The notes beneath the pieces are model-generated. The model had not been told where the DNA came from and ran no database searches. It saw only the letters and a list, made by a program, of their open reading frames with translations. DNA of 64,000 nt from positions 1-64,000 of the forward strand of contig JAULAV010008602.1 of assembly GCA_030789695.1 (NCBI GenBank), given 5' to 3'. Both the position numbers and the translations under genes were made by a program. The DNA is from Scilla litardierei (Eukaryota; Streptophyta; Magnoliopsida; Asparagales; Asparagaceae). Shown one piece after another: positions 6,135 through 51,476 of this stretch. Positions within the stretch are counted from its first letter, which is position 1. The number at the start of each line of letters is the position of its first letter.

Positions 6135-6224
6135 CAGAGTTGGAGAGAGAAGAGGCGAGGCGAGGATTGGGTGAGAGCTTGGATCTATGAAGATGGGATT
6201 GCGAGAGTGCAACAATGAGAAGCG

Positions 6225-6446: not shown

Positions 6447-6583
6447 CGTGGAAGGCAAAATCAACGTTTTCTGATTTCAAAACTCTCAAATGCCTTCTTA
6501 TTTATAGGCAGGCGCAGGGGCCAGGGAAATAAGAAGGCATTTGAGAGTTTTGAAATCAGAAAACGTTGATTTTGCCTTCCACG

Positions 6584-6736: not shown

Positions 6737-6963
6737 GCGCGACGTGAGGATGCTGCAGAATTCGAAGGAGGAGAAGAGGACAATGCAGAAGCCCCCGCAA
6801 CATGACGCTTCTCATTGTTGCACTCTCGCAATCCCATCTTCATAGAGCCAAGCTCTCGCCCAATCCTCGCCTCCAAGGTCGGAGCTATGCTTGAGCTAAG
6901 GTGGGCTATAGTCCGGGTAAGTATTTGAATAAACCCTTGTACACTACTATTCAACTTCATAAA

Positions 6964-6968: not shown

Positions 6969-8801
6969 TGATTTGGGTTCAATATTGCATATTTAACCCC
7001 CCCCATTTAGCCCTATTTTGTGCTCATGTGATGCTAAATTGGTCTTTAGTACACACGTATTTTCTACACATTTATTTATTAAAGAAAACACACTATTTGA
7101 GCACAAAACAGCAATTAATGAAGTATTTCTGCACTTTTTATATTTTTCCTAGCACCGTCTCGATTTCACGATTCCAACGACTATTTATTTGTATTTTTCT
7201 GAGATCTGTGCTAATTACTATGAATTTTTGAATGCAGAATACCAATTAATTGGGGAAATACGCAAAGAAATACGATTATACGGGACACGTGGCTGCATCT
7301 CCACCGTCCGCAGCTACATCCGACGGCATCCGAATTCTCTTAGCAAACGCTCGATACAGACCGTTGGATTAAGATCCAACGGTCGAAACGAGACAAAACT
7401 TGCATTCGGAGAACGCTGCGGAGCGCCTCTTCTCGAGACACGTGGCGTCATCTCCTGCGTCCGCGAATGCATCCAACGGTCGGGCGAGAAGCGGAACCGA
7501 GCGAAGCACCGAATTCTCCTGTCCACGTGGCGGCCATCGGTCGCATCCCTGCTTCATCCAACGGTCCGCGTCAACCCCGCATTCGAACTCAGAACGAGCG
7601 ACGTGGACGAGCGATGCCCGTACGATGGAGATCCAACGGTTACTCTCGAATCCGAATCGAATCAGCGGAGCGGCGACGTGGCTGTACGTGGACGCTCCGA
7701 TGTGGATCCGACGGTTACAATGAAGCGGATGCGAAGCGGGTTTGCGCACGATTTTTAAAGTCCACGTGGCAGCGCCACGTTAGATCCCGCAACGATCAAC
7801 GGCCCTCGTTTGCCCCGCTTTAGATCTACGGTCCGGATCAATTCGGGTGCGGTTTTTGTGCGGGTTTGAACCCGTTAAGCCCAATAAACCCGCAATCTTA
7901 TTATTTAAGCGTATTCTAGGGTTTTTGGGCGTATTATTGGCGTATTGGAGCACTTAGGAGCCGTATTTTCTTCTGCAAAAATTCTGTAAAGTTCCAGAGC
8001 CTATTTTCTTATTTCCAGAGAGTTTTGAAGACTTTTCAAGGAGAATTGGTGATATTTTCTTCAACTTTAGCTTGTATTTGGGTGTTTTAGCTTGTATTTT
8101 GCCCTTAAACTTCCGTATTTTGCTAATAAACTTATGAATTCTGATCTGAAATTTGTGTATTTCTGCACCATGAGTAGCTAAATATTTTATGTGCATGGTA
8201 TGGAGTAATTAGGTGATGTGAATCGTATTCGTTGGTTGTATTATTGCGCTTAATCGCTATATTTGCTAAAGTTTTAATCGTCGCTCTTAAATCTACTTTT
8301 TCATATTCCAAAAGAATTGTTCTAGTAGATGCTCACCCCACAAGGGTGAGATTTGATCTCTCCAAAAGAGAGTTTCATACTTCATATGTACGTTTACAAC
8401 TTTAGCGATATATTATTAGAATTGATGCGTTAACTCCCAAAAGGACATCTTCCGACGATTCGCTCCCAAAAGGAGGTTTCGTTGAGTTATAATTGATCAA
8501 CCAAAGCTTACGATTCGCTGATCCTAATGAACCCATGCCATGTACATGCCTTTTATATCTATTTTTCACAAACTAGATTTCGTTGTTTGCATTGATCGCA
8601 CGTAACAATCCCATCACCACACACTTTTCATACCACCTTCACCATCACTATTAAAGTGCTTAGATTTTATTCGTAGTTACTCTATTTGACTTGGACTTGT
8701 GGTTTCAACATATTCTCCCGAGGATTCGACATCTGGACTCCCAGATTTTACTACTTGAACGGACTCTTTCGCTTGAAAGAAGCACCTTTCGGAGCCCACC
8801 A
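6969..8801 (+). repeat. Athila 5' LTR
   Basis: It begins TGATTTGGGTTC and ends GAGCCCACCA. The U3 part (about 7280-7830) is GC-rich and packed with repeated CACGTGG and TCCAACGGTY motifs; the later part is AT-rich. Long frames in this LTR overlap in several registers and are not considered genes. Confidence 0.95.
7286..7768 (+). promoter_or_regulatory. G-box and MSA-type motif cluster in Athila LTR
   Basis: Within 480 bases the LTR has four palindromic G-boxes CACGTG (7286, 7439, 7524, 7763). It also has at least four matches to the plant M-phase activator core YCYAACGGYY: 7375, 7472, 7557 and 7632, the last matching TCCAACGGTTA in full. One inverted copy lies at 7359-7368, and a one-base variant at 7707. 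The same set recurs in the 3' LTR. MSA elements are bound by three-repeat MYB proteins in dividing cells; that this LTR responds to the cell cycle is inference. Confidence 0.6.
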
Positions 8802-8807
8802 AGTTTT

Positions 8808-8825
8808 TGGCGCCGTTGCCGGGGA
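8808..8825 (+). other. primer-binding site, tRNA-Asp
   Basis: TGGCGCCGTTGCCGGGGA, six bases inside the 5' LTR, is complementary to the 3' end of plant tRNA-Asp(GUC) (TCCCCGGCAACGGCGCCA). This is a known primer for Athila elements. Confidence 0.9.
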
Positions 8826-8940
8826 GAACGGTTTGTTACTACGGTTTATTTCATTCAGAGGACCTTCGGTGAGATCTTTCCACTTTATTGTATATAAACT
8901 TTTGTTTGCTTTCATATAAAAAAAATATTTGTGCTAGTTT

Positions 8941-10455
8941 ATGTGGCATAGGACTCCTAGGACACATAGGTTGACTCGACGTTTTGATATGGCTAATAAT
9001 AATATGGATGAAAACTTTAGCAACAATAACGAGAATAATGTGCAACCTGGAGTGCCTAGGACTTTAAAAGATTTACTTCGACCCACTGGGACTAGCACTG
9101 CTTCATGCTTTGTTTTACCTGCCGATGCAAATTCTTTCAATTTTAAACCTGGGGTGATCCAACTCTTACCCACCTTTCATGGGTTAGACAAGGAAAATCC
9201 ATATCTTCATATTAAAGGATTTGAGGAGGTTTGCTTGACATGCTTTGATGGGAAAACTAGCGAGGATACGATATATCTTAAACTGTTCCCATTTTCATTA
9301 AAAGACAAAGCTAAAAATTGGTTGAATGCATTGCCATCACGCTCTATTACTACATGGATTGATTTGCAGGCTGAATATCTAAAGAAGTTTTTTCCTATTC
9401 ACAGGACACAGGGACTGAAGCGGCAGATTATGAACTTTGCCCAGAAAAGCGAGGAAACATTCTACCAGGCATTTGAAAGGTTCAATGAGTTGCTGCTCGC
9501 ATGCCCGCACAATGGCTTCGACAAAAGCAGGATTATTGGCTTCTTCTACGATGGACTGCAGCCGCAAATGAAGCAATTTGTAGAGATGATGTGCAATGGA
9601 GGATTCTTTGATAAAGAGCCAGACGAAGCTTGGACGTACCTGGAGGAGATAGCAGAAAATGCGCAGACATGGGACTCCACTTCAGACTACGAGAGAGGAG
9701 GCCATTCTGCACCATCCCAGCCTACACGAGGAGTGGTTTATAATTTGAAGCAAGAGGATGCGTTGGAGGCAAAGATGGAGGCCATGATCTCAAACAAGCT
9801 TCATGCAATGAATTTGAAAGAGGCCAAGGCAGTTGAGATAGAGCAGATTTACGCACTTTGCGACGTCAGTGGCCATGACACCAGTGCATGCCCCACACTT
9901 CCGGCTTTGAAGAGCATGCTAGGCAATCCAACGGGGGTGAATCAAGTGTCTTCGAATTACCAGAACTTCAATTCCAACAAGGGGTGGCGCAACAATCCAA
10001 ACTTGAACTGGGGCCCCAATCAGCAGACTCAGCAGCAGCAGGCTCCCCCTCCGTTCCGACAACCTCAATACAACAACAACAACTATCAAGGTGGGAACCA
10101 GAGGAGGGACCCTGAGCCAGTGCAACAACAGCAGATGCAACCATTTGGTGATGCGCTTCAGCAGCTTATCCAATTGCAACAAGCCCAGATGCAGCAGCAG
10201 CAGGCTCAATTTCAGGCTCAGCAGACTCAGAATCAGCAGATGAGCAAGAGCTTGGAGAGGCTTACAACGACATTAGAAAAAGGTAAGCTTCCATCTCAGT
10301 CAATTCCAAATCCTAATATGGGCTCATCTTCTTCTGCAGGAAATAATATGAAGCCTTGCCAAGCAGTGTCCACTTTGAGGAGTGGAAAAGAGATTCAGAA
10401 GCCTGATCCACCGAGCAGACAAGCTGAGCAGGAAGAGGGAATTCAGATCCAATAA
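8941..10455 (+). CDS. gag: Athila Gag
   Basis: The frame has 504 codons and encodes the capsid protein that packages element RNA in cytoplasmic particles. The retrotransposon Gag domain lies at about residues 75-245 and includes LKDKAKNWLNALPSRSITTW near residue 120 and the FFDKEPDEAWTYLEEIAENA block. A cysteine/histidine cluster (CDVSGHDTSACP, near residue 308) stands where a zinc knuckle would be but lacks the canonical spacing. The C-terminal part (about 355-435) is very rich in Gln and Asn. Translation may start at 8941 or at ATG 8989 in the same frame (MANNNMDENFSN); the second looks more like known Athila starts. The frame ends with TAA at 10453-10455, and pol follows in the same frame. 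Confidence 0.9.
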   Translation: MWHRTPRTHRLTRRFDMANNNMDENFSNNNENNVQPGVPRTLKDLLRPTGTSTASCFVLPADANSFNFKPGVIQLLPTFHGLDKENPYLHIKGFEEVCLTCFDGKTSEDTIYLKLFPFSLKDKAKNWLNALPSRSITTWIDLQAEYLKKFFPIHRTQGLKRQIMNFAQKSEETFYQAFERFNELLLACPHNGFDKSRIIGFFYDGLQPQMKQFVEMMCNGGFFDKEPDEAWTYLEEIAENAQTWDSTSDYERGGHSAPSQPTRGVVYNLKQEDALEAKMEAMISNKLHAMNLKEAKAVEIEQIYALCDVSGHDTSACPTLPALKSMLGNPTGVNQVSSNYQNFNSNKGWRNNPNLNWGPNQQTQQQQAPPPFRQPQYNNNNYQGGNQRRDPEPVQQQQMQPFGDALQQLIQLQQAQMQQQQAQFQAQQTQNQQMSKSLERLTTTLEKGKLPSQSIPNPNMGSSSSAGNNMKPCQAVSTLRSGKEIQKPDPPSRQAEQEEGIQIQ

Positions 10456-13400
10456 GAGGGAATTAAAGAACAAGAGGAGGTGCAGGAAGAGAGCACGGAT
10501 GTGGGTGTGAGCAAAAGCGTCATTAAAGAGAAGGAACCCGCAGCATATGTACCTGCAGCACCCTACCCTCATCGGCTACTTCAGAAAAGCAAAGATAAGT
10601 ATCAAACTGAGATTCGAGAAATTTTTCAGAAGTGCCAGATCAATATTCCATTGCTTGATGCTATTAATCAAATACCTGCCTATGCTAAATTTCTGAAAGA
10701 TTTGTGCACTGTTAAAAGAAAGTTAAACGTGAAAAAGAAAGCATTCTTGACTGAACATGTTAGCTCTATTGTGCAACAAAATACACCACCTAAATTTAGA
10801 GACCCTGGATCACCCACCATCACTTGCACCATTGGCACTAAAAAGATTGGAAATGCTTTATTGGATTTAGGTTCTAGTGTCAATATATTGTCATATCCTA
10901 TTTTTGTGCAGCTTGGGTTAGGACAGCTAAAGCCTACGTCTGTTATATTACAACTAGCTGATAGATCTATTAAAGTTCCTAAGGGATGCATTGAGGATGT
11001 CCTCGTTCAGGTGGACAAATTTTACTACCCCGCGGACTTTATAGTTCTAGACATCCAGGGACCCCAAACTGCCAAGGCTACTCCTATCATCCTAGGTAGA
11101 CCATTCCTAGCGACATGCAATGCTTTAATAAATTGTAGGGATGATCAACTGAAAATTTCTTTTGGCAACATGACTTTGGACTTGAATATTTTTAATACTT
11201 GCAAGTTGCCACATGTGGATGATGAAATTGAGAGGGTGCATATGATTGATTCGTTGGTGGATGATTATATTTGTTCTGAATTTTGTGATGATGCTTCTAT
11301 TGTTGAGACTTTTATTGGTGATTCTGATGACATATCTTTTGTGCAGGAGAACGTGAAGGAGCTCAATGCGGTATGGGAGCCTAGGTTCGAGGCTTTGCCA
11401 CCTAATGCATCAATTCAAATTTCGTCTGAGGTGGAGGATCCAAAGCCAGAGTTGAAGCCACTTCCTAACTATCTTAAGTATGCTTTTCTTGGAGATGAAA
11501 ACAGCTTCCCTGTGGTAATATCTTCTAAACTTACTCTAGAACAGGAAAGCTCTTTACTTGATGTGTTGAGGAAACATAGAGGTGCTATTGGTTGGTCCAT
11601 TGCTGACATAAAAGGTATAAGCCCTATTGTATGCATGCATCACATTTATTTAGAGGATGACGCCAAACCCACTAGAGAAATGCAACGTAGGTTAAATCCA
11701 ACATTAAAAGAAGTGGTGAAAGGCGAGGTTTTAAAATTATTGGATGCAGGCATTATTTATCCTATTTCTGACAGCAAGTGGGTTAGCCCTACACAGGTTG
11801 TTCCTAAAAAGTCTGGCCTCACCGTGGTTAAAAATGAGAATAATGAGCTTATCCCAGTTAGAGCCACCACAGGTTGGAGGATGTGCATAGACTATAGGAA
11901 GTTGAACTCCCGAACTAGAAAAGATCATTTCCCTCTTCCATTTCTTGACCAAATTTTAGAGAGAGTAGCTGGACATGAATATTATTGCTTTCTAGACGGT
12001 TATTCAGGTTATTACCAGATTGAGATTGCACCTGAGGACCAGGAAAAGACCACTTTTACCTGTCCCTTTGGTACTTTTGCATTTAAACGAATGCCGTTTG
12101 GTTTATGTAATGCTCCAGCTACTTTTCAGCGATGCATGCTCAGTATTTTTGATGATATGGTTGAGAAAATTGTTGAGGTATTTATGGATGATTTTTCAGT
12201 ATATGGTAGCTCTTTTCATGATTGTTTGGCTAACTTGGCTCTTGTTCTTGACAGGTGCATTGAAAAGAACCTCCTATTGAATTGGGAGAAGTGTCATTTT
12301 ATGACCACAGAGGGACTTGTCCTAGGTCACCTGGTTTCTAAAGATGGTATACAGGTAGACAGAGCCAAGGTAGCAGTAATTGAGAAGCTACCAAGTCCTA
12401 AATGCGTGAAGGACATCAGATCATTTTTGGGACATGCAGGATTTTATAGGCGGTTCATCAAAGATTTTAGCGCCATGTCTCGCTCTCTTTGCAACGTACT
12501 TACTTTAAATGTGGATTTTATTTGGACACCTGAGTGTCAAATTTCTTTTGAAACTTTAAAGAAGTTGCTGATTTCTGCCCCCATTTTGCAGGTGCCAGAC
12601 TGGTCCCTACCATTTGAAATAATGTGTGACGCAAGCAATTACGCAGTTGGTGCAGTCCTAGGCCAAAGAAAAGACAAAGTTCCAATAGTGATTTACTACG
12701 CCAGCAAGACACTAAATGATGCTCAGAGGAATTATACGACCACAGAGAAGGAGTTGCTGGCCGTAGTATTCGCGTTGGAAAAATTCAGGAGCTATATTCT
12801 GGGATCACCAATTTTGATTTATACTGATCACTCTGCTTTAAAATATTTATTGTCTAAAAAAGATGCTAAGCCCCGATTGATACGATGGATTTTATTGTTG
12901 CAGGAGTTCAATGTCACAATCAAGGACAAGAAAGGCGTGGAGAATCTAGTAGCTGACCATTTATCACGATTGACAGTAGGCCTTGATTCAGCAGATGTGC
13001 CTTTGAAGGACTCCTTTCCAGACGAGCATCTTTTTAGCGTCTCCACCTCTCCATGGTATGCTGATATCGTTAATTATCTGGTAACTGGTAAGACCACTGG
13101 CACTTGGTCTCTTCAAGACTTTAAACGATTCAAGTACGAGGTAAAATATTTCTTCTTTGATGATCCGTACTTATATAAATATTGTAGTGACCAAATTGTT
13201 AGGAGATGCATTCCTGATCATGAAATAACCAGTGTGATACAATTTTGTCATGATGGAGTGTGTGGTGGACACTTTTCAGCGAACAAAACTGTGGCAAAAA
13301 TCTCGCAATGTGGCTTTTATTGGCCATCTATGTTTAAAGACACATTTCATTATTGCAAGACTTGTGCTGCATGCCAACAATTAGGGGGTATTACTAAAAG

Positions 13401-14349
13401 TAACATGATGCCTTTAAACCCTATTTTAGAAATTGAAATATTTGATTGTTGGGGCATAGACTTCATGGGACCTTTCCCACCTTCATTTGGATATGCTTAT
13501 ATTTTGGTTTGTATTGATTATGTTTCTAAATGGGTGGAAGCTATTCCTTGCAGGTCGAACGACACTTCCGTTGTGCTTAAGTTCCTCAAAGAGAACATTT
13601 TCTCTAGGTTTGGAGTGCCAAAGGCCTTGATCAGTGATGGAGGGTCTCATTTTTGCAACTGTATGTTCGCTACCTTAATGAAGAGGTTTGGGGTCACACA
13701 TAAAGTTTCTACTCCGTATCACCCCCAAACCAATGGCCAAGCAGAGTTGGCAAATAGAGAGATCAAAGGAATTCTACAGAAAACGGTGAATCCATCAAGA
13801 AAAGATTGGAGTTTGCGCTTACCTGAAGTGTTGTGGGCCTACAGGACGGCCTACAAAACAATTTTGGGGATGTCCCCTTACCGCCTTGTATTTGGGAAGT
13901 CTTGTCACTTACCTGTTGAGATAGAGCATAGATCTTATTGGGCTATAAAGAAAATGAATTTTGATACCGATGTCTCTTTTTCTTCTCGTAGGTTGCAATT
14001 GTTGGAGCTGGAGGAATTGAGGAGAAATGCGTACGACAACGCTAAAATATCAAAAGAGAGGATGAAATCCGTCCACGACATGATGATCTTAAGGAAGGAG
14101 TTCACCCCAGGCCAAAAAGTACTCCTATACAATTCCAGGCTACACATCTTTCCTGGGAAGCTTCGCTCTAGGTGGTATGGACCTTTCGTCGTCAAAGAAG
14201 TTTTCCCACATGGCGCTGTGCTCTTACTTAATGAAAAAGACGGAAGTGAGTTCAAGGTGAATGGCCAACGATTGAAGCATTTTCACGAGCCTTGGACCAA
14301 GGAAGCGAGCACCATGGATCTCACAGACCCACCTTCGGGTGGGGACTAA
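10456..14349 (+). CDS. pol: Athila Pol (protease, RT, RNase H, integrase)
   Basis: This is a 1289-codon frame counted from the first Met at 10480, and it remains open in frame back to the gag stop. Residues given from that Met. Protease has [12 protein letters not shown] near 127-138. RT has CIDYRKLN near 467 and catalytic FMDD near 567-570. RNase H has [13 protein letters not shown] near 715 and TDHSALKYL. Integrase has an HHCC-type finger around 920-967, then the catalytic triad D in GIDFMG (about 994), D in ISDGGSHF (about 1052) and E in NGQAEL (about 1087). The tail has a [14 protein letters not shown] block but no chromodomain, as expected for Athila. All catalytic residues are present, so apart from needing readthrough of the upstream stop it looks functional. 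Confidence 0.93.
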
Positions 14350-15668
14350 TCAGGTGTGTTCTTTCCATGATTCCCTCTTCCTAACATTGAGGACAATGTC
14401 TATTTTAAGTTGGGGGGAGGGAAATAGCTTTTAGGATTTTTATTTTATTTTCTTTTTTCTTTTTCTTTTAGGATTTTATTTTTTTAGTTCCCTTTTTGCA
14501 TTGAAAAAAAAAATTTTGAGTTAAGAAAATATCACCAAAATCCTTTTTACCTAGAAATGAACCTCATGTGATGAAATTTCTCGTTATTTATTCACCATCG
14601 TACACTCGTGATTTATTCCCCCCCCCCCACTATTTTTCAACATTTCAATCTCATTTTACATGAATTTGAGTGCTTATGGTGAATTTCTTTTTATACATCT
14701 CAATGGCAAGTTTAATCGATGACTTAATGAATCTAGAAATTATGGATTAGCAAGTGGTATGCTCTCATTGGAACACACAAAAGTTCATGCACCAATAATT
14801 CATAAATTAACTGGAGCATTGTTCTTTATCTCGTATTCATTGCCATTTGCATGCTTGGTGTGATTTTGGGTAGAAAAACGTACCACGTCATTTGAAATGA
14901 TTAGGATACCCATTCTTGTGAAAATTTAAAGAAGAGGAAGTTATCTTGCCACGTTGTTTATGCACACACAAAAGAAGAAAAATGAGATGAATGTGGAAGA
15001 AAAGAATGAATAAATGTGCTATTAAAGAAATAACTTGGTTGGCTCGAGTAGTACAGTCCGAGGGGTCCTTCTTGGCCTAATGCCCTATGATCATCTGATT
15101 TGGGAGCCATTGACCGGAAACCTCAATTATTTGATGGAGCGATCCAAGTTATATACTTTTCCGCGAATGTTGCTTGATGCGCGTTATGCGGAACTATGGA
15201 AAAAAGCGAAAGAAAATAGAGAATAAGTGTGCATAATTAGCAAGGCAAGAGAACTTCCAAAGCTTAAAGAAAACACAAGATGTGGTGTGAGTCCCTATGA
15301 ATAGAAATTGACGTGTGTATGTCTTGATACCATCCTATTTTTGATGCTTGCTTTGCATGAACCATCTACGCTCCAAGTTAAAATATTTGATTGAACGGTG
15401 TGTGCCATTGATTTTGTGTACTATGAGCTATGAAGTAATGGATAGTGAATTTGAGTCAACTTTATAACCATTTGAGATGCTTGACTTTCATTTTTGAAAA
15501 CCCACAAGTACCATTACTTGATGAGCTTGAAACATTGATATTAGTGTTTGGTTATCTCTTTTGTCGTAGTAGTATGATGGTGAGTAATTTGAGATCTGAT
15601 AAGGTGATCTAGGCGTATTTTTAATCGCTCTTTTTGCTAGAGACTAGCAAAACGCTAGTTGGGGGGTG
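14350..15668 (+). other. Athila 3' noncoding region with two purine tracts
   Basis: No coding domain is visible in these 1.3 kb, where some Athila relatives carry an env-like ORF. An internal tract TTGGGGGGAGGGAAA lies at 14410-14424, soon after the pol stop. The polypurine tract used for plus-strand priming, GTTGGGGGGTG, directly precedes the 3' LTR (about 15658-15668). Homopolymer runs of C and A occur near 14500-14630. Confidence 0.75.
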
Positions 15669-17501
15669 TGATTTGGGTTCAATATTGCATATTTAACCCC
15701 CCCATTTAGCCCTATTTTGTGCTCATGTGATGCTAAATTGGTCTTTAGTACATACGTATTTTCTACACATTTATTTATTAAAGAAAACACACTATTTGAG
15801 CACAAAACAGCAATTAATGAAGTATTTCTGCACTTTTTATATTTTTCCTAGCACCGTCTCGATTTCACGATTCCAACGACTATTTATTTGTATTTTTCTG
15901 AGATCTGTGCTAATTACTATGAATTTTTGAATGCAGAATACCAATTAATTGGGGAAATACGCAAAGAAATACGATTATACGGGACACGTGGCTGCATCTC
16001 CACCGTCCGCAGCTACATCCGACGGCATCCGAATTCTCTCAGCAAACGCTCGATACAGACCGTTGGATTAAGATCCAACGGTCGAAACGAGACGAAACTT
16101 GCATTCGGAGAACGCTGCGGAGCGCCTCTTCTCGAGACACGTGGCGTCATCTCCTGCGTCCGCGAATGCATCCAACGGTCGGGCGAGAAGCGGAACCGAG
16201 CGAAGCACCGAATTCTCCTGTCCACGTGGCGGCCATCGGTCGCATCCCTGCTTCATCCAACGGTCCCGCGTCAACCCCGCATTCGAACTCAGAACGAGCG
16301 ACGTGGACGAGCGATGCCCGTACGATGGAGATCCAACGGTTACTCTCGAATCCGAATCGAATCAGCGGAGCGGCGACGTGGCTGTACGTGGACGCTCCGA
16401 TGTGGATCCGACGGTTACAATGAAGCGGATGCGAAGCGGGTTTGCGCACGATTTTTAAAGTCCACGTGGCAGCGCCACGTTAGATCCCGCAACGATCAAC
16501 GGCCCTCGTTTGCCCCGCTTTAGATCTACGGTCCGGATCAATTCGGGTGCGGTTTTTGTGCGGGTTTGAACCCGTTAAGCCCAATAAACCCGCAATCTTA
16601 TTATTTAAGCGTATTCTAGGGTTTTTGGGCGTATTATTGGCGTATTGGAGCACTTAGGAGCCGTATTTTCTTCTGCAAAAATTCTGTAAAGTTCCAGAGT
16701 CTATTTTCTTATTTCCAGAGAGTTTTGAAGACTTTTCAAGGAGAATTGGTGATATTTTCTTCAACTTTAGCTTGTATTTGGGTGTTTTAGCTTGTATTTT
16801 GCCCTTAAACTTCCGTATTTTGCTAATAAACTTATGAATTCTGATCTGAAATTTGTGTATTTCTACACCATGAGTAGCTAAATATTTTATGTGCATGGTA
16901 TGGAGTAATTAGGTGATGTGAATCGTATTCGTTGGTTGTATTATTGCGCTTAATCGCTATATTTGCTAAAGTTTTAATCGTCGCTCTTAAATCTACTTTT
17001 TCATATTCCAAAAGAATTGTTCTAGTAGATGCTCACCCCATAAGGGTGAGATTTGATCTCTCCAAAAGAGAGTTTCATACTTCATATGTACGTTTACAAC
17101 TTTAGCGATATATTATTAGAATTGATGCGTTAACTCCCAAAAGGACATCTTCCGACGATTCGCTCCCAAAAGGAGGTTTCGTTGAGTTATAATTGATCAA
17201 CCAAAGCTTACGATTCGCTGATCCTAATGAACCCATGCCATGTACATGCCTTTTATAGCTATTTTTCACAAACTAGATTTCGTTGTTTGCATTGATCGCA
17301 CGTAACAATCCCATCACCACACACTTTTCATACCACCTTCACCATCACTATTAAAGTGCTTAGATTTTATTCGTAGTTACTCTATTTGACTTGGACTTGT
17401 GGTTTCAACATATTCTCCCGAGGATTCGACATCTGGACTCCCAGATTTTACTACTTGAACGGACTCTTTCGCTTGAGAGAAGCACCTTTCGGAGCCCACC
17501 A
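15669..17501 (+). repeat. Athila 3' LTR
   Basis: This LTR has the same length as the 5' LTR (1833 bp). Differences seen by eye include a C7 versus C8 run near the start, an extra C in the CGGTCCCGCG site near 16265, and about eight substitutions such as ACATACG for ACACACG. It keeps all G-box and MSA-type motifs. Confidence 0.95.
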
Positions 17502-17580: not shown

Positions 17581-18243
17581 ATTATTTTTTTCTCTATACA
17601 TACATTATTGAAAAATTATCTAAAAATTATCTTAGCCTGTCGTTACAAAGCACATTTTGATCTAGCACATAGTTTAAGTACAATTAAACACACTTATCTA
17701 AACCCACATGTCAGTGACAACAACGTAAACTTAATTTTGTACGGAAAAGATGAATCTAACGGTGGTCAGCCTAAAATTTTGATACTTCAACCATCAAGCC
17801 GTGTCGTATTGGATATGTGTCCGATACACATGCCAGATACACCCATCAAACTTGATGTTTTCTTGTTTAAGTACATCCTTTTAAAGAATTTGCTAAAGTA
17901 TCACCGCATCGTATCGCGTAATTAACCACGTTTGATGTCAATTATTGGTAATTAGAAATCTTTGAACAAGCAATTAAACATGGATTTAGGCCAAGACTAA
18001 GCCGGCTAATTATGTGCGAGTTGGTCATCAGAAAGACCTAGACTTTGGACCCTATTTTAACTGGGTCAAATCCATTTCCTACAAATTCCTCATAGCATCA
18101 CCAAAATCCTGAATAATTTAGTGTATATACTGTTAAATTTATATAGTTCAAAGACCAATGTGTAATATTTTCTAACAAATTGTTATCAAGATTACATATT
18201 AACCTATTGACCACTAATAATGTTGTTTTTGGATGATTGTATA
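17581..18243. other. AT-rich intergenic sequence
   Basis: No supported gene was found. One 105-codon frame (17608-17925) has no recognisable domain and ordinary AT-rich composition, so I treat it as chance. Part of this stretch could be the body of the SINE-like sequence. Confidence 0.4.
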
Positions 18244-20122
18244 TGTTGGATATTGGACTCCCCGGATTTGGTTTTGGATGATGAACAAACATAAATATAT
18301 CGTGAACTAACACTTCGTGAGCGCAGTTATGGAGATCGTCGCCAAATTCATATGAATATCAATTACGACGTCTCAAGACTTCTCAAAGCACGTGATCGTA
18401 TGCCTAAAGCTTCGTTGAAGCTTATGGACCATTTTAGAAGTCATGAAGATTCGATTGAAGCTATTGAAGACGGTATCGTCAAGTTTTATTTATTGTCTTT
18501 AAGCTTCTTTCGTAGAATGTTAAGCCTTGAGTAGGTCTTACGGTTTAAATCTTCATAACGCTCATATCTTAGCTCTAGGATCTTAGTAGAAGTCCATACA
18601 ATCCTTCCCGAAGCTTCGCGCTTCGATTCGCAACTTCTTGTGCATGTTAGTTGGTTCAAGAAGAAGAACTGACCGACTAGATGGTGATCTAGTCGGTCGG
18701 CAAAGATTCTTGGACCGACTAGTTTCTGTCAGTTAATTCTAAGCTCTTTACTGTTTACAGTTAGTCGGTCTAAGTTGACTCACCGACCGACTAGTTTGTG
18801 AACTAGTCGGTCAGTGATGCTTCTGTGACCGACTAGTTGAGCTTTCCCTGTACATGCACATTTAAGCCTGAGCTACTGTTTATCATTAGTCGGTCTGTGT
18901 TCATTGATCGACCGACTAGTTGATGAACTAGTCGGTCAACTTTCCTTCTTGGACCGAATAGTTTAGCTTTACTGTACATGCCAATTTTTCACCTAACTTA
19001 CTGTTTATCGTTAGTCGGTCTATGCTCATTTGGCGACCGACTAGTTGGTGAATTAGTCGGTCAACATTTGTTCTTGGACTGACTAAGTCTATTTATGCTC
19101 AGACTTCAGTTTTATCTGTTAGTCGGTCTCAGTTGAGTAACCGACCGACTAGTTGTGAAACTAGTCGGTCAGCTACTCTTCTTGGACCGACTAGTTCCTT
19201 ATGTCTGTGCTTTGATCTTTTCTCTGTTCACTCATTAGTCGGTATACGTTTATTGACCGACCCGACTAGTTGATGAACTAGTCGGTCGGTGGTTGTTCTT
19301 TGACCGACTAGTTGGGTTCAGAAAAGAGCCGTTGGAGCTTTAATTGAAACGTTTTTCTCTCTCTCTCTCTCCTCTATCCTATAAATACTTGTTGGGCTGC
19401 ATTCATTGCAGTCAAGGCTGATATTATTGCAAGTTTAGAGATCAAGAGAAATCATTCCAAGCTCATTCAAAGCTCTTTCATTCCATTCAATAATCTCTCC
19501 TCACTCTTACTTCCAAAGGGAGATTCATTGAGTGTGAAGCCTTCCAAGCCAAGTGCTTGATTCTAGGTCACCAACATCCCCATAGCTCTCCATCGCTGAT
19601 CTACATCTTGGAGCTAGGGTTTGGTGCCACTTCTTCTTCCTCAAAATCATCCTTGCCCTAATTCGTAAGCATTACTCAAGGCATAGGTATTTTGTCGGTA
19701 AGAAGTTTCTTATTTCATTTCAATTTCATATTGTAAGTTTCACTCTTGGTTGTGAGAGTGTGGTTGTGATCCCGGGTTGTGGGAGTCACAAATTACTTTG
19801 TGTATGATTTGACTTGTGGAGGTTTTTTCACAAGTATTTCATAGTGGAAATCTTGAGTTAGGGTTTCTAATTCAAGTATCCGGAGGGGATCCGGGTGGTT
19901 GGGACGTAGGATCACCGGGAACAAGTCGGGGAGACTTGGGTGGATCCGAACCCAGTAATATCTTGTGTTAGAATTGTTAATTTTGTTGTTGTCTTCAATT
20001 TAAGCTTCCGCAAATTGATTTGGTAGTTGTTTGCACGATAATTAGGAATTATACTCCTTGTTATTTTTAAAGTACTATTCACCCCCCTCTAGTACTTGTG
20101 CAGTATCTTGTAGGGCATTACA
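18244..20122 (+). repeat. SIRE 5' LTR
   Basis: It begins TGTTGGATATTGGACTCC and is placed to end at TTACA (20118-20122), two bases before the primer site. Its start is homologous to the partial LTR at 62772. It contains the TAGTCGGTC array (18671-19310), a CT repeat and a TATA box TATAAATA at 19380-19387. The 3' end cannot be confirmed by a second LTR. Confidence 0.8.
18671..19310 (+). promoter_or_regulatory. TAGTCGGTC inverted-motif array with DRE/CRT cores
   Basis: About six units of roughly 120 bp, each of the form TAGTCGGTCT, a gap, GACCGACCGACTAGT, 3-5 bases, ACTAGTCGGTC, a gap, TTCTTGGACCGACTAG, then an AT-rich spacer. The central pair forms an 11-bp stem. I count about 24 copies of ACCGAC or its complement. 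RCCGAC is the core bound by DREB/CBF factors in drought and cold responses. The array ends 70 bases before the TATA box, an enhancer-like position. Stress response of this LTR is inference. Confidence 0.75.
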
Positions 20123-20124
20123 TT

Positions 20125-20137
20125 TGGTATCAGAGCC
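20125..20137 (+). other. primer-binding site, initiator tRNA-Met
   Basis: TGGTATCAGAGCC is the standard plant copia primer site complementary to the 3' end of initiator tRNA-Met. Confidence 0.92.
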
Positions 20138-20149
20138 AGATACTTAGCT

Positions 20150-21382
20150 ATGTCTGCCAACGACAACAAGACCGTGCGTCCACCTTCCGACTATGGCACC
20201 TTCAGGAACCGTGAAGGAGCATCTTCGGTGATGGAAGGACATTCCTCAACGAGGCCTCCATTCTTCAACGGTACCAACTACGGGTACTGGAAATGCAGGA
20301 TGGAAACCTTCCTCCGGAGTGCATCTCTATGGAGGACCACGATGAAGGAATATGTCGAGCCCGTCGAAGAAGACTTTGAGAAATGGACAACCGCGGAGGT
20401 CGTCGCGGAGGTAAGCAATGCCAAGGCAATGAACGCCTTGCAATGCGCATTGGAGCCCGAGGACTTCAATAAGATATGCACATGTAAGAGTGCATATCAA
20501 ATTTGGAAATCCCTCCTCATACTACATGAAGGGACGAGTAGGGTAAGAGACTCTAAACTCGTTGTTGTTAACAAAGATTACGAAATGTTTCATATGCAAC
20601 AGGGCGAGAAGATGAAGGAGTATTACGCTCGCTTCGTCGACATCATAAACGAGTTGGAGGCTCTCGGCAAAACCTACACCCAAAAGGAGAAGTGTTCGAA
20701 GCTTATCAAAGGACTTCCTTCTTCTTGGGAAAAGCGTACCTTCGCCATCGAGGAAGGTAATGATATGAACAAGTACACCGTAGTTCAACTAATGGGTACT
20801 TTAATGTCATACGAGGTACGCAAGGATTGCAAGTTAAAATTGCAGGAAAAGATGAAGTCCTACCTAAAGCAAGACGAGCCAAAGAAGAAGGCTATTGCTT
20901 TCAAGGCTGCTCCATCCACATCCACATCAACCGATGATGAAGACTCGGAAAACGAGTTGGACTTGGAGTCCATGGCACTCATGGCCAAGAAGTTCAACCG
21001 TTTCTTCCGAAAAGGTAACTATAAGAACAAAGCTAAATTTGGTTCTTCTAACGCCTCCTCTTCTCCTTTGTGTTTCAAGTGCAACAAGCCAGGACACATG
21101 AAAGCGGAGTGTCCTCTAAATAAGCAAAAGGAGAAGTGGAAGGCGCCGGAATTCGACAAGTCCAAGAAGTACAAGAAAGGGAACAAAAAGGGGCTTGTCG
21201 GAGCAACATTCACCGACTCCGAGGATTCCTCAAGCGGAGAGTCGGACGATGAGCAAGTGGAGCAAGCACACATGTGCTTTATGGCAAGAGAGGAGAATGA
21301 TCAAGGATCTTCCTCTTCCGATGATAGCGACGACGAAGGTGATGAGGTAACTATGGATGACCTTAGGAATGCTAATTCTTAA
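20150..21382 (+). pseudogene. gag: SIRE Gag, ends at a premature stop
   Basis: The frame has 410 codons. The N-terminal part has PFFNGTNYGYWKCRMETFL near residue 38. The UBN2-type capsid domain follows to about residue 230. Residues 320-333 form a CX2CX4HX4C zinc knuckle (CFKCNKPGHMKAEC). Acidic Ser/Asp clusters lie near the end. The TAA at 21380-21382 is followed in the same frame by sequence that looks like the normal continuation (LWSKYTKLVNRYTKVKDDLA), so I infer the stop is a mutation rather than the natural end. Confidence 0.88.
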
Positions 21383-22502: not shown

Positions 22503-25500
22503 CAAGGGGAATTGAATACTCGATAGCGGGTGTTCAAAACACATGACGGGTGACGCTCAATTGCTCTCCGGAGTGGTTCCCATTGCAAATGGAAACCGCG
22601 TCGTATTTGGAGGCAACGAGAGCGGAACCATCATAGGTGTTGGTAAAGTGGGTAATCCTTCTAAACCCATTATATGTGATGTTTACCTTGTTAAAGGATT
22701 AAACCACAATCTTATTTCAATAAGTCAACTTTGTGACAAAGGTTACAAAGTTAACTTTGCGAAAGGAATGTGCCATATTTTAAGAAAAGATAATAATGAA
22801 TTATTGTTTTCCGGCACACGCCATAAGGATATATATATCCTAGATCTTCCAAGATCACATGAACAATGTCTTATTGCCAACACAAGTGAACAACACTTAT
22901 GGCATCGACGTTTTGGTCATGTGAACTTTGGAACACTTTTTAAGCTTTCCAAGTTAAATTCTATTAGAGGCTTCCCTAAGCTTGTCTTTCAAAAGAAAAG
23001 CTTTTGTGACTCGTGTCAACGAGGCAAGCTTCCAAAATCTTCGTTTAAACCTAAGAAAAGCATTTCTTCTAAGCGGCCTCTAGAGCTATTACATCTAGAT
23101 TTATTTGGGCCAACTAGAGTTGCTTCATTAGGTAATGCTAGATATGGACTTGTCATCGTTGATGACTTTTCTAGGTTTACTTGGGTATTTTCATTGTGTA
23201 ATAAAAATGAAGCTTTTGAAAACTTCACAATTTTTGTTAAGAAAGTACAAAATCTCTTAGGAACCACCATTGTCACTATTCGTAGTGATCATGGAGGTGA
23301 ATTTGAGAATGAGTCTTTTGAGACATTTTGTGATGAAGTTGGTATTACACACACCTTCTCTTTCCCTCGTGCACCTCCTCAAAATGGTGTAGTTGAGAGA
23401 AAGAATAGGACGCTAGTGGAGTGTGCTCGCACTATGCTTGATGATAGCCAACTTGGCCATCAATTTTGGGCGGAAGCGGTACATACCGCTTGCTATGTGT
23501 TTAATAGAATACTTTTGAGGCCCGGCACTAAACAAACTTGTTATGAATTGTTGTTTGGTAGGTTGCCTCAAGTTAATCATTTTCGTGTTTTTGGTTCAAA
23601 ATGTTTTATTAAGAACACGTATGGTAGTTTGGACAAATTCGATCCAAGATCCGATGAGGGGATTTTTGTTGGATATTCTTCGCGTAGCAAAGTCTACCGG
23701 ATATTCAACAAACGAACCTCAACGATCGAGGAATCGCTTCATGTGTCATTTAATGAAGGATTTGTTCCAACTAGAATTACTAATGATGATGACTCTATGG
23801 ATGTCTTATGTGATTCAATTGGTAATTCTAACTCTAATGATTCTATTAATTCTATTGAGACTAACCCGTCTAATGAAGTTGTTGAGAATGTTCCTAGTGA
23901 TCAAGGTATTCCCAAACGGCTTCATACCGTTCGTGACCATCCTCATGAGCAAGTCATTGGCAATATCCATGATAGTGTCAAGACGAGATCGCAAGTGAAC
24001 TACTTCACTCATTGCGCCTTTGCCTCCTCGATAGAGCCAAAGAATGTTAATGAAGCATGCGAAGATAGCGCTTGGATCTTAGCCATGGAGGAGGAACTCA
24101 TTCAATTCGAGAGGAATGCAGTTTGGGAGCTTGTTCCATTGCCATCGAAGAACCACACCGTCATAGGGACAAAGTGGATCTTCAAGAACAAAACCGACGA
24201 AAACCAAGTCGTCGTCCGGAACAAAGCTCAGTTAGTTGCTCAAGGCTACCGTCAAGAGGAATGTATTGATTTCGAAGAATCCTTCGCTCCGGTAGCTAGA
24301 TTAGAATCAATTAGATTATTATTGTCTTTTGCATGCCATAATGATTTTAAATTATTTCAAATGGATGTTAAAAGTGCATTTTTAAATGGAGATGTTGTTG
24401 AGGAAGTTTACGTTTCTCAACCTCCAGGTTTTATTAATGAAAATTTTTCAAATCATGTCTTTAAACTAAAGAAAGCGCTTTACGGCTTGAGACAAGCTCC
24501 TCGAGCTTGGTATGATCGCCTAAAGAATTTTCTTTTGGATTTGAATTTTAAAATGGGAGAAGCCGATTCTACACTTTTTGTTAAGCATTCGAATAATGAT
24601 ATAATTTTAGTTCAAATTTATGTTGATGATATCATTTTTGGTGCTACTAACTTTGCTCTTTGCGAAGAGTTTTCTAATGTTATGAAGGAACAATTTGAGA
24701 TGAGCCACATGGGTGAGCTCAAATATTTCTTAGGTCTCCAAATTCGCCAAATGGACGATGCAATCTTCATCCACCAAACGAAGTATACGGTGGAGTTGCT
24801 TAAGCGATTTGGAATGGAGAGTGCCTCCGGGAAAAAGACTCCAATGAGCACGACTACGCATGTTGATAAGGATACGGGCGGTAAGGATGTAGACATTCGT
24901 CCATATCGAGGTATGATAGGTAGTTTACTTTATCTTACCGCAAGTAGGCCCGATATTATGTTTGCCATATGCGTATGTGCTCGTTATCAGTCTCAACCTA
25001 AGGAGTCTCACTTAGTAGCGGTAAAATGTATTTTTCGCTATCTAAGTTACACTTTAGATTTTGGATTACTTTATCCGAAATCTAGCACATATGAGTTAGT
25101 CTCATATAGTGACGCTGATTATGCGGGATGCAAATCCGACATGAAGAGTACTAGTGGCACTTGCCATTTTATAGGAAATTCCATTGTCTCTTGGTTTTCC
25201 AAGAAGCAAAATTCCGTATCACTTTCAACCACTGAGGCGGAATACATTGCCACCGGTGCCGCGTGTGCTCAAGTTCTTTGGATGAGACACACACTTAAAG
25301 ACTTTGGTATAAACTGTGATACTTGCCCTATCATGGTGGACAACCAAAGTGCAATATGTCTTTCCAAGAACCCAGTACACCATTCTCGTTCGAAACACAT
25401 AGATGTCCGACACCATTTCTTAGATGATCATGTTGCTAAAAAGGACATCATATTAGTGTACGTTGAAACCCAGAAGCAAATCGCCGATATTTTCACGAAA

Positions 25501-25632
25501 CCCCTAAAGGAGGACTCCTTTGTGCGGTTGCGTCGAGAATTGGGGATTATGGGTGAATCCGAGATATATTTGTTATTCAATATTCTTGCATGCTATACTA
25601 TTCGTTATATTTGCTCATGCTTGAAGTATTGA
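22503..25632 (+). pseudogene. pol: SIRE Pol (protease, integrase, RT, RNase H)
   Basis: The long open part is 22543-25632 (1029 codons). Protease sits at its start: [11 protein letters not shown] is readable from about 22520, but the codon two before LDSGC is TGA where relatives have Trp, so protease is cut from upstream. Integrase has [14 protein letters not shown] and FCDSCQRGK (finger), then D in HLDLFGP, D in IRSDHGGEF and E in [10 protein letters not shown] has [13 protein letters not shown] and catalytic YVDDIIFG near residue 692. RNase H has [10 protein letters not shown] near 855, STTEAEYIA, and ends [18 protein letters not shown]. The RT to RNase H part is intact. The frame differs from gag, so at least one shift lies near 22400-22500. 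Confidence 0.9.
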
Positions 25633-25813: not shown

Positions 25814-26084
25814 TAGTCGGTTCATGTTCAGTGACCGACCGACTAGATTAAGATCTAGTCGGTCAGTAAGTGAACACAGACCGACTAATTCCTGTCTGTA
25901 CACTTGGGTTCTGCCTCTGTTTACAACTAGTCGGTTCAAGCTCATTGACCGACCGACTAGATCGTGATCTAGTCAGTCAGTGCTTGAACTATGACCGACT
26001 AGTTGTGCCAGGGACTGTTTGGTCTTTTGAGCTCTCGACCGACTTAAATCGCATCTAACCGATTCGTTTTCATTTTAGTCGGTC
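25814..26084 (+). promoter_or_regulatory. internal TAGTCGGTC array before the env-like ORF
   Basis: About two full units and one partial unit of the LTR array type recur here, with paired GACCGACTAG and CTAGTCGGTC motifs around 25835-25865 and 25945-25975. I count about eleven RCCGAC cores. The array ends 227 bases before the ATG of the env-like ORF, mirroring its place before the LTR promoter. No clear TATA box lies between. It may be an internal promoter or enhancer for the second ORF; this is inference. Confidence 0.65.
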
Positions 26085-26310
26085 TCCATCTTTCCTCCAA
26101 CTCGAAAACCCCCGATCCCTCCTCGAGTCTTTTCGACTTCCGTCGATCTTTCGACCCATTTCCGGCCATCCTCTCCGTCCCGGCCGTCGACCTTCGACCT
26201 AGGGTTAGGGTTAGATCATTTTCAGTTAGGGTTTCTATTGGTTTCAGATTTCCTAGGGTTGTGCTAGGGTTTCTTCGATTAGATCTCGTGTGTCGTGTCG
26301 TGCCGCGATT

Positions 26311-27950
26311 ATGGCTCGTACACGTATCCCGATCACTCCATCTAGCCCCTCGCCGATGACCGTAGAACCTACCCCTACGGATCCCGTTCAACCTTCGAGA
26401 ACCCCTCCGAAACACCGTGCTAAGACCACCCATCCCTCGTCGTCTTCGCCTCCTTTCAAGAAGAAGAGGACGACGACCGCCAGGCCTAGAGCCCAACCCA
26501 AGCCTAAGCCCAAGCCCAAGCAACTTGCATCTCCCTCTTCTTTCCATACAGCTACCGATTCCGATTCCGATACCGAGTATAGACCCGAGCCTGAGACTCA
26601 TAGGGAACCCACTCCTCCTACCCATCCTGAGTCTAGCTCCCGACCTCGTACGTCTACCCGTAAGCCTAAGGGAAAGGCTCCGATGCCGGTAGGCGGTGTC
26701 GATATCTCGTTGTGTCGCGACGACCCTTTGTGTCTCGCGGCTTACAACTGTATCGAACATTGCCCGCTGCTTCTGGAGCATTTCGTCCAGTTTAGTGACT
26801 TCATAGGGCTAGCTGATCTTCTTTCGTCCTCGGGTCTTCTCGATTACCTTCGTTATGACCCGAAGGCGAATCCTCACCCCTACCCTCGTTTAGTTAAACT
26901 ATTCTATGCCAATAGGATCCGGGGTCAGTACGATGCGACCCACTCTGTTGAGACGACTGTTTTGGGGACTCCTATAGTCCTCACAGCAGAAATCTTAGGA
27001 GAGATTTTGGGTATATCCTCGTCTGGCCTCCTCCCCTCAGACATTTCTGTTGATGATATTTCTTCCTTAGATCAGACCATCCTCTCTGAGATTTTCCAGC
27101 AGATTCCTCCCGCCATGATTGGCGTGCCCTCCAAATCCTTCAAGCCAAATACATGGGTCCTGAATTTGATTCTGAAGTCGTGCTTGCTACCCAAGTACGG
27201 CTCCTCATCTCTACCGTCCCAGCCTTTTCTGAAGCTGATTTATGCTACTTTCATGGGGAGCTCGATTAACTGGGCTCGCATTATACTCGATAAGATTGAC
27301 TCTTTCGAGGGTATTCACAAGACCACGAAATCGGCTCACATCCCCTTCCCGTGCTTGTTGACCCTTGTTTTCCGTCACTTCCGTGTCACATTGCCTCCTG
27401 ACGATGAGCGTCCACTTGGTCCTCCCCTGAACGCGACGGTCGTCAAGAAATCTCTTGCGGCGCTCTGTCACGTTCAGAGGACGACACCTTCAGCGTCTGC
27501 CTCTGCTGCTCCCTCTACCACACTTGATGAAGCGTCTGGTTACTTCGTCGTCACGAGTCTCGTTTGGCTCATACCGAGGAGGTAGTTTGCCGTATGGCTA
27601 GTCTGATGGGTGTTCAGCTTCCTCCTCCTGTTTCTGAGGATGAGGAGATGGATGAGGAGGACATTGAGGAGCTTTGTCGTGCTTCTACTCGTGCCCCCGA
27701 GGGCACTTCTGGTGATGCTGCTGCTGCTTCGACTGCTGGTGATCCCGAGAGTACACCTGTTGCCACCGCTCCTGCGGTGGATACTCCGACTGGTGCTCCC
27801 GAGGACACTACCGTCGCTGCTCCTGAGTTTGTCTCTTCTGTCGTGCCTAAGACTTCTACCGTCGCTCCAGTTGACCTTCCCACTGATCCAGTCACCACCA
27901 CTTCTCCTGCAGAGCCTGCTGCTACTGCAGATCCTGTCGGTTCCTCTTGA
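26311..27950 (+). pseudogene. SIRE env-like ORF, one frameshift
   Basis: From ATG 26311 the frame encodes a Pro/Lys/Ser-rich N-terminus with repeated KPKP (about residues 50-80), then a folded region with LIVLT/EILGEILGISSSG and NTWVLNLILKSCLLP blocks like those of plant transposon proteins found after pol in SIRE elements. Near 27540 the frame shifts: the register that continues reads ESRLAHTEEVVCRMASLMG and an acidic, Ala/Thr/Pro-rich tail to a stop at 27948-27950. No convincing signal peptide or membrane segment was seen, so an envelope role is doubtful. The name env-like reflects position only. Confidence 0.7.
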
Positions 27951-28510: not shown

Positions 28511-29872
28511 AGCTGGGGATACTAGAGAGGAGTTGATGGTGGAGGCACACAGTTCGCCGTATTCTGTGCATCTTGGCGGGACCAAGATGTACAAGGATCT
28601 TCGTCTGAATTATTGGTGGCATGGTATGAAGAGGAGTGTGGCTCGGAGTGTAGCCAAGTGTTTGGTTTGCCAACAAGTGAAGGCGGAGCATCAGCGTGCG
28701 GTTGGGTTGCTACAACCGCTTCCGATTCCGGAGTGGAAGTGGCAACACATCACTATGGATTTCGTGACTGGACTACCTCGGAGTCCGAAGCAGAATGACG
28801 CGATTTGGGTGATCGTAGACCGATTGACCAAATCCGCGCACTTTATTCCATTCCGAGTAGGACAGTCCACTGAGGCGCTAGCAGGGAGATACATGGAGGT
28901 AAATTCTTTTACTCTCCGTTTCTGTTTCCTTTTCCTAGCTTAGATAGTGATGTAACGTGAATCGTGCAAGAGATCGTGCGACTTCATGGGGTCCCCGTGA
29001 GTATCGTGTCGGACAGAGACACGAGATTCACATCTCAGTTCTGGCAGAGTTTGCAGAAGAGTTTGGGTACGCGTTTGAGTTTCAGCACGGCGTACCATCC
29101 GCAGACGGATGGCCAGTCCGAGAGGATGATTTAGATTTTGGAAGACATGCTGAGGGCGTGTATGTTGGATTTCAAGGGTTCGTGGGAGGACCATCTACAT
29201 CTGGTGGAGTTTTCTTACAACAACAGCTATCAGGCGTCTATTAGCATGGCGCCTTTCACCGCTTTGTATGGGAGGAAATGTCGATCGCCATTGAGTTGGG
29301 ATGACGTTGGCGATCGGGAGCTGTTGGGGCCTGAGATGATTGTGGAGGCTGTGGAGGTCGTCAGGAATATTCGGGAGAGATTGAGGATTGCTCAGGACCG
29401 TTTTAAGCATTGGGCGGATGCTAAACGTCGTCCTTTGGAGTTTCAGCCTGGAGATCATGTGTTTCTGAGGATTTCCCCGAATCGTGGAGTGATTCGTTTT
29501 GGGAAGCGAGGGAAGTTGAGCCCGCGATACATTGGACCGTTTGACGTTCTGGAGAGAGTTGGCGAGGTATCCTACCGCTTAGCCTTGCCGCCATCTTTGG
29601 AGGGAGTTCACAATGTTTTCCATGTGTCGCAGCTTCGTCGATACATTAGCGATCCATCTCATGCTGTGGATTTCTCGGAGATTACCGTTCGCCCCGATAT
29701 GACGTATGACCAGCAGCCAGTGCAGATTCTGGACAGGCGTCAGAAGTCACTTCGGAACAAGGTTGTCAATCTTGTGAGGGTGATGTGGCGACACGGCTCG
29801 CCTGGAGAGTCTACTTGGGAGAATGAGGATGAGATGCGAGAGCGTTTCCCACTTTTGTTCCCGGACACGTGA
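28511..29872 (+). pseudogene. Tekay Pol 3' part (integrase, chromodomain), copy 1
   Basis: This copy begins inside the region between RNase H and integrase. It has the zinc-finger segment (SVAKCLVCQQVKAEH), the first catalytic Asp (HITMDFVTGLP), an intron-like break at 28899-28972, then the rest of integrase and the chromodomain-like tail ([16 protein letters not shown]). It differs from the full element by a TAG at 29131-29133 where the other copy has CAG (Gln), which disrupts integrase near its third catalytic residue. Confidence 0.85.
28899..28972 (+). other. intron-like insert in integrase, copy 1
   Basis: It is identical in position and sequence to the 43676-43749 insert in the full Tekay element: GTAAAT donor, pyrimidine-rich middle and tandem AGAG acceptor. 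Removal joins ATG GAG to ATC GTG and restores the integrase frame. Confidence 0.55.
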
Positions 29873-29918
29873 GTATTGGGAAATTCCGAGGACGGAATTT
29901 TTCTTAAGTTGGGGAGGA

Positions 29919-51474: not shown

Positions 51475-51476
51475 TC

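Follow-up and report, generated by a model that had tools for sequence, protein, structure and literature searches.

The control regions of LTRs are usually traced family by family. The 64-kb window studied here (the whole stretch of DNA that was analysed, 64,000 nucleotides) is plant DNA in which LTR retrotransposons are densely packed, and it raises the question of how a SIRE element (Ty1/copia) and a Tekay-like element (Ty3/gypsy) came to carry the same array of short sites ahead of a TATA-like box. The occurrence of one block in two unrelated kinds of retrotransposon suggests that control blocks can pass across kinds. The explanation that we favour on balance is that a Sirevirus-type array of repeated motifs (RMs), lying in a U3 block, moved from one family into the other, with SIRE as the probable donor and Tekay as the recipient, and was retained as a transcription-factor platform. 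Because RM arrays have already been described for Sireviruses (PMC2829016), only the gypsy half of the observation is unexpected.

Elements and arrays in the window

The 5′ LTR of the first SIRE element (SIRE1; 18244–20122, forward strand; 18243–20117 in the computations) runs from TGTTGG to TTACA and is followed by the primer site TATCAGAGC and a copia body with RVT_2. Its gag ORF (20114–21382) has a best match of 39% identity (14 proteins), and its pol ORF (22516–25632, forward strand) contains Pol_BBD, gag_pre-integrs, rve, and RVT_2, which mark it as copia. Retrotran_gag_2 and RVT_2, encoded by the ORFs behind the LTR, are among the domains that, together with the primer site, identify SIRE1 as Ty1/copia. 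The nine-mer of the primer-binding site is exact, and the intervening TTTGG is one base off the ATTGG of Sireviruses (PMC2829016). A CCCCCC run about 35 bp before the LTR end, located by eye and as this run only, corresponds to the C-rich integrase signal. Multiple AGGGGGAG polypurine tracts ahead of the 3′ LTR are a further Sirevirus trait; no SIRE1 3′ LTR was seen within the window, where the DNA from 28511 on belongs to a Tekay duplication. The second SIRE-type LTR (SIRE2; 62772–64000, forward strand) is cut by the window end and is classed on LTR similarity to SIRE1 alone, because its body falls outside the window.

The gypsy side is represented by a complete chromovirus-like element at 37327–47236, which consists of LTR b (37327–39868), a body (40012–44649), and LTR c (44696–47236), all on the forward strand, with CCTTT immediately before LTR b and after LTR c. 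The several ORFs of the body encode Retrotrans_gag, RVP_2, RVT_1, RNase H, Integrase_H2C2, SH3_Tf2-1, and a weak Chromo domain (E = 1e-4; 22.3 bits, under the Pfam cut-off of 25.1) in the gypsy domain order. The gag product is 52% identical to one metagenome protein (2 proteins). The LTR end GCGGGGCGTGACA, with GGG at −8 to −10, fits the type A Del U5 att (PMC4029996). The name Tekay is a label from the first reading of the sequence, and its lineage basis here is this U5 att end together with the gypsy domain order. LTRs b and c are 98.3% identical, and the 5-bp target-site duplications are intact. We considered whether a copia LTR had been mis-assigned to a gypsy body and rejected it: the domains enclosed by the two LTRs are of gypsy type (RVP_2, RVT_1, RNase H, and integrase zinc-binding) and are accompanied by the weak chromodomain match, CCTTT duplications bound the element, and a masked BLAST search against SIRE matches solely one 94-bp upstream piece (discussed below).

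A third Tekay-like LTR, LTR a (29919–32459, forward strand), lies where the 3′ end of the 37327–47236 insertion recurs as a segmental copy. The copies, 28511–35505 and 43288–50282, are 99.8% identical and 14.8 kb apart. Some 7 kb are duplicated here, from the 3′ end of the Tekay-like body through one LTR into 3 kb of flank; this is either a recent segmental duplication or an assembly duplicate. Since LTRs a and c are copies of this kind, the five LTR arrays represent three independent insertions. C-rich DNA with an extended poly-C stretch ends just before the Tekay target-site duplication (37290–37318), and at 36520–36909 there is an inverted repeat whose 141-bp arms share 96% identity.

Two other LTR pairs (6969–8801/15669–17501 and 50533–51474/57247–58202) are free of exact array sites, because all exact sites fall inside six arrays; sites within two mismatches number two and six in their first LTRs (6969–8801 and 50533–51474, respectively). 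The former pair belongs to another gypsy-type element (6969–17501; LTRs 99.5% identical, gag and pol ORFs), which has no array site and is immediately preceded by a fold-back at 6157–6873 with 347-nt arms (95% complementary, 23 nt apart). The latter is a repeat pair of 93% identity, probably LTRs, around a tandem repeat of six units, each about 143 bp long (53346–54252), within 50533–58202.

The exact 9-mers TAGTCGGTC and GACCGACTA occur 89 times in the window, all inside the six arrays, which bears out the claim of the sequence-only reading that SIRE and Tekay LTRs share one array. The pair TAGTCGGTC-N14-GACCGACTA with up to two mismatches was found at 52 places, again all in arrays; 100 dinucleotide shuffles gave a mean of 0.00 and a largest count of 0. 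The unit is a rigid 74-bp module of four sites in alternating orientation (+ − + −) starting at 0, 23, 42, and 65, and linkers of 34–51 bp separate the modules. The earlier description of a module of about 120 bp therefore fits the repeat length (108–125 bp) and not the module itself. The spacing is free of indels in 17 modules, namely five each from SIRE1, SIRE2, and Tekay LTR b and two from the sixth array. This set leaves out the modules of LTRs a and c, which are near-copies of those in b, and one degenerate SIRE1 module, from 19236, which departs from the four-site spacing.

In SIRE1 the array spans 18648–19310 (modules at 18648, 18762, 18887, 19012, and 19120, and the degenerate sixth from 19236), in SIRE2 63174–63708 (63174, 63287, 63411, 63521, and 63635), and in Tekay LTR b 37597–38126 (37597, 37710, 37823, 37938, and 38053); those in LTRs a and c lie at 30189–30718 and 44966–45495, and all are read on the forward strand. 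The positions given at first were right within about 25 bp. The true starts (18648, 63174, 30189, 37597, and 44966) are earlier, because each LTR array opens with one further degenerate site. Downstream of the last site, a TATA-like box follows at 69 bp in SIRE1 (TATAAAT, 19380–19386), 55 bp in SIRE2 (TATAAAT, 63764–63770), and 44 bp in Tekay LTR b (TATTTAA, 38171–38177), each on the forward strand. One turn of the DNA helix takes 10.5 bp. Within a module, successive ACCGAC cores are spaced by 22, 20, and 22 bp and sites of like orientation by 42 bp, by arithmetic near two and four helical turns. Helical phasing of the inter-module linkers was dropped, as lengths of 34–51 bp do not decide it. 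A CpG island is a further trait of Sirevirus RM boxes; in the four arrays measured, CpG observed/expected is 0.96–1.19 and GC content only 0.42–0.46, as values of base composition.

All five LTR arrays of the earlier reading are present, although only as three insertions, and a sixth array had been missed. It lies at 25814–26084 (forward strand) between the SIRE1 pol and the next ORF, begins about 180 bp past the pol stop, and consists of modules at 25814 and 25928, followed by additional sites at 26037 and 26076, the former with one mismatch. The arrays had been said to lie always just before a TATA box. This holds for the LTR arrays of SIRE1, SIRE2, and Tekay b and fails for the sixth, for which no TATA-like box was found in 26002–26320, a point against the explanation that we favour. 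The ORF behind it (26257–27585, forward strand), which we assign to SIRE1 from its position, lies where Sireviruses carry ENV; it matches PF20167 (Transposase_32; 54.5 bits, cut-off 45) and is 29–31% identical to Cephalotus proteins (9 proteins). Because PF20167 is related to Athila ORF1 (PMC11728184), this ORF need not be env. Sireviruses with ENV have extra RM boxes ahead of it (PMC2829016), and the sixth array fits this description, the ORF being a putative env only.

Homology beyond the sites

Shared sites by themselves could arise by motif-only convergence, in which the LTRs would have separately accumulated the sites of one host factor at the spacing that its complex needs. The sites are indeed much more alike than the spacers (0.952 versus 0.566, 17 modules), and CGG-CCG palindromes recur in Sireviruses whose LTRs are otherwise divergent (PMC2829016). 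Against this explanation, the spacers, the linkers, and a motif-free upstream block are similar as well. Strict in-module spacers of SIRE and Tekay agree at 0.539, calculated on 32 of the 38 spacer columns with the base beside each inner site edge omitted; permuted columns gave 0.264 ± 0.039 with a largest value of 0.424, and none of 5000 permutations reached the observed value. Spacer similarity between SIRE and Tekay modules (0.528 and 0.551) is on the level found among Tekay modules (0.525). Within SIRE1 or SIRE2 it is 0.562 or 0.566, and between LTR modules and those of the sixth array it is lower (0.478, 0.509, and 0.456). The inter-module linkers are alike as well and score 5.19 (null −3.07 ± 0.97, maximum 0.06), and after removal of the 14 bp beside the site they score −3.69 (null −6.0 ± 0.84, maximum −3.84; 300 shuffles each).

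The first module, module 0, forms the best cross-superfamily module pair, with a similarity of 0.75 to both SIREs (next best, 0.69), and in both superfamilies it combines a degenerate first site with a GATG..GATC inner loop. The longest exact match between SIRE and Tekay is the 29-bp TACTGTTTATCGTTAGTCGGTCTAAGAAC, which substantiates the earlier claim of a common word around the motif. A strictly collinear, module-by-module transfer was rejected, since the straight order ranks 11 of 120 pairings and only module 0 is clearly partnered. Because the spacers are alike (54% versus 26%) and module 0 is the best cross-pair, we judge motif-only convergence highly improbable.

The similarity extends upstream of the first site, as the sequence-only reading had claimed, and it is clear for SIRE1 and weak for SIRE2. 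When the sites were masked, BLAST aligned SIRE1 18551–18644 with Tekay 37500–37593 (72.9% of 96 columns, E = 5e-8) as the sole match between SIRE1 and Tekay; between SIRE2 and Tekay there was no match at E = 0.01, which counts against a transfer. By local score, the motif-free upstream blocks (18551–18647 in SIRE1 and 37500–37596 in Tekay LTR b, forward strand) reach 60, compared with a largest value of 31 in 1000 Markov-simulated sequences. The score of 31 for SIRE2 and Tekay (largest of 1000 simulated, 35) is weak on its own and likewise counts against a transfer. Over 97 aligned columns, the identity is 0.845 for SIRE1–SIRE2, 0.68 for SIRE1–Tekay, and 0.588 for SIRE2–Tekay. The block contains a short palindrome whose two arms change together, GAAGC-TTCGC-GCTTC in SIRE1 (18596–18620), GAAGC-GTCGC-GCTTC in SIRE2 (63130–63155), and GGAGC-TTCGC-GCTCC in Tekay (37560–37574).

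Downstream of the array, no similarity between SIRE and Tekay was detected (p = 0.16 and 0.90). A recombination edge at the array 3′ end was also considered for SIRE1 and SIRE2 and rejected, because their downstream DNA still aligns above chance (global score 95.4, against a maximum of 54 in 300 null trials). The homologous U3 segment, comprising the array and about 95 bp upstream, measures about 0.76 kb in SIRE1 and about 0.63 kb in Tekay of the same plant. Divergence in its upstream block (JC 0.42 and 0.60) far exceeds that of the Tekay LTR pair (98.3% identical), so that the exchange would be much older than the Tekay insertion.

Origin and function of the shared segment

The aligned spacers and upstream DNA favour transfer or common capture over motif-only similarity, among the possibilities of transfer, capture, and convergence raised at the outset. 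In the explanation that we favour, the U3 segment would have passed between SIRE and Tekay-like families, probably from SIRE to Tekay, through reverse-transcriptase template switching on co-packaged RNAs or recombination of nested copies. The SIRE-to-Tekay direction is favoured because Sireviruses commonly carry RM arrays (13 elements; PMC2829016) and because SIRE1 has another array before the env-position ORF. The scarcity of CpG islands in eudicot Del/Tekay LTRs (PMC4029996) would point the same way, if it applies to this plant. The evidence base of three independent LTR-array insertions in one window counts against this explanation.

The reverse passage, from Tekay to SIRE, draws on the fact that the window itself gives no direction, the Tekay modules being as diverse (0.525) as those of SIRE1 and SIRE2 (0.562 and 0.566). 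We regard it as decidedly unlikely, given that both monocot and eudicot Sireviruses bear RM arrays with a CGG-CCG core, also before ENV (PMC2829016), and that SIRE1 has both an LTR array and the array before the env-position ORF. Alternatively, both families may have independently captured a third sequence, such as a host promoter, a minisatellite, or another mobile element, with no direct passage between them. A maize Sirevirus (copia) palindrome is also the commonest structured motif in Helitrons (Martin et al., PMC10760457), which shows that palindromes of this kind are present in transposons of another type, and the present comparison covers SIRE and Tekay of one window. On the other hand, no exact site was found outside the element arrays in the window, the block occupies the same functional place in both families, and such arrays are a standing feature of Sireviruses (PMC2829016). 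The latter two points make a SIRE source simpler, and we consider third-sequence capture quite unlikely.

The sites appear to be under constraint in the SIRE lineage. Between paired modules of SIRE1 and SIRE2, differences affect 1 of 144 positions in the sites and 27 of 152 in the spacers (p = 8e-8), where pairs were picked by spacer similarity and the partnerless S1.2 and S2.4 were omitted; site conservation is biased upward, because the modules were located through their sites. Across the superfamilies, module 0 shows 6 differences in 36 site positions and 10 or 11 in 38 spacer positions, so the sites are not clearly better kept.

Each module is at the same time an imperfect 74-bp palindrome. 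The array might accordingly be kept mainly as a hairpin, either in 3′-end RNA or as a DNA cruciform, or be renewed by palindrome-driven slippage, with protein binding secondary. Folding of two arrays gave structures of much greater stability than those of shuffled sequences (z = −19.2 and −14.5), and maize Sirevirus LTR palindromes attract small RNAs (PMC10760457, PMC5311732), from which the array may also carry a silencing cost. Covariation is divided on this point. Doubly changed cells number 15 versus 9.6 expected (5 of 500 shuffles), and the covariation score is 0.098 versus 0.069 (3 of 500); doubly changed pairs are not in excess (6 versus 4.9; 145 of 500), nor are further pair types (12 versus 11.9; 305 of 500). 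What does not vary is the sequence of the sites, as in a protein site. Moreover, 110-nt windows below −40 are found in the LTRs with arrays (59/353 in SIRE1, 69/224 in SIRE2, and 59/487 in Tekay LTR b) and in array-free LTRs (7/345 in the LTR at 6969 and 49/167 in the unrelated LTR at 50533), and their frequency in the latter indicates that they are not special to array LTRs. A primarily structural role therefore seems unlikely to us, though it deserves some weight.

We prefer to regard the array as a probable protein platform about 45–70 bp ahead of the TATA-like box. The rigid four-site module would place its sites near one face of the DNA, and for this reason we propose that a host factor binds cooperatively. 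A stress-responsive AP2/ERF (DREB) protein is a candidate. ACCGAC is the core of the DRE element (PMC4849061, PMC3784558) and is preferred by DREB2A (PMC3784558); the ACCGAC of the array fits the A/GCCGAC core of DRE/CRT and represents a predicted DREB site. ACCGAC or GTCGGT occurs 136 times in the window, 75 of them in the four arrays counted. Because most published RMs in Table 3 of PMC2829016 lack ACCGAC, DREB is a candidate only.

A broader proposition, which we hold tentatively and as falling somewhat short of probable, is that a U3 control cassette crosses the Ty1/copia–Ty3/gypsy divide as a unit, with the two families sharing one promoter switch and being co-activated and co-silenced. 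A transfer of this kind would mean that elements of different superfamilies exchange sequence through co-packaging and template switching or through nested recombination. If the array passes between superfamilies, regulation would spread apart from the coding genes, and classification based on pol would miss it. Two families with one switch should also answer the same stimulus and meet the same small RNAs.

Comparison with known systems

No Ty3/gypsy LTR with an RM array of the Sirevirus kind was found among the literature matches listed, with subscription papers mostly outside the search, and the matches listed for the four 10-mers included no work on LTR retrotransposons. The whole window gave no Rfam match at gathering scores. 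No relatives of the SIRE pol or the Tekay RT were confirmed in IMG/VR, which is not a plant genome collection. Matches of the inner hairpin in two IMG/VR sequences (L001 and L002; first 2000 bases of each) showed the hairpin at one place each and were taken as chance, terminator-like occurrences. The same hairpin had no match in GTDB contigs, an absence that says little, since this is not a plant genome collection either.

The arrays resemble the palindromes of maize Sirevirus LTRs (Bousios et al. 2016; via PMC10760457 and PMC5311732) in their clustering in the control region and their strong predicted structure, whereas their sequence differs. Maize Ty3 (RLG) elements are generally without an obvious hairpin peak (Martin et al., PMC10760457). 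Eudicot Del/Tekay LTRs are predominantly without CpG islands (Cruz et al. 2014, PMC4029996), which may not apply to this plant; plastic 5′ CpG islands are described for Del/Tekay LTRs in the text available from that study, which does not mention RM-like palindromes such as those present here. An exchange of LTR segments has a precedent in the grass centromeric retrotransposons, for which template switching or nested recombination was proposed (PMC4079200). Those swaps took place within one chromovirus lineage and not across superfamilies. Ancient recombination has also been suggested among copia lineages (PMC6317226).

The closest known system is that of the Sirevirus RM boxes (Bousios et al. 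2010, PMC2829016), palindromic repeated motifs that lie in the LTR ahead of its TATA box and again in front of ENV. The arrays share with them a high-copy palindromic motif with a CGG-CCG core, the same place in the LTR, and an occurrence before a putative env. RMs are characterized by palindromes with this core in at least 8 copies, and the present arrays contain 89 exact half-sites with the CGGTC and GACCG halves in inverted order. The RMs of Osr10 and Osr8 from rice and of Vitis have the same half-site, CGGTC/GACCG (PMC2829016 Table 3). Like the RM clusters in the upper LTR, the arrays precede the TATA-like box, by 55–69 bp in SIRE and 44 bp in Tekay LTR b. RMs were described as specific to Sireviruses in a comparison of Ty1/copia elements only, whereas the arrays in LTRs b and c are in gypsy LTRs. 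In contrast to the RM boxes of that study, the half-sites here are split by 10 and 14 bp and arranged in a fixed four-site module, which also occurs in the Ty3/gypsy LTR. This module offers a defined probe for the factor behind the Sirevirus RM boxes, a question left open in 2010 (PMC2829016).
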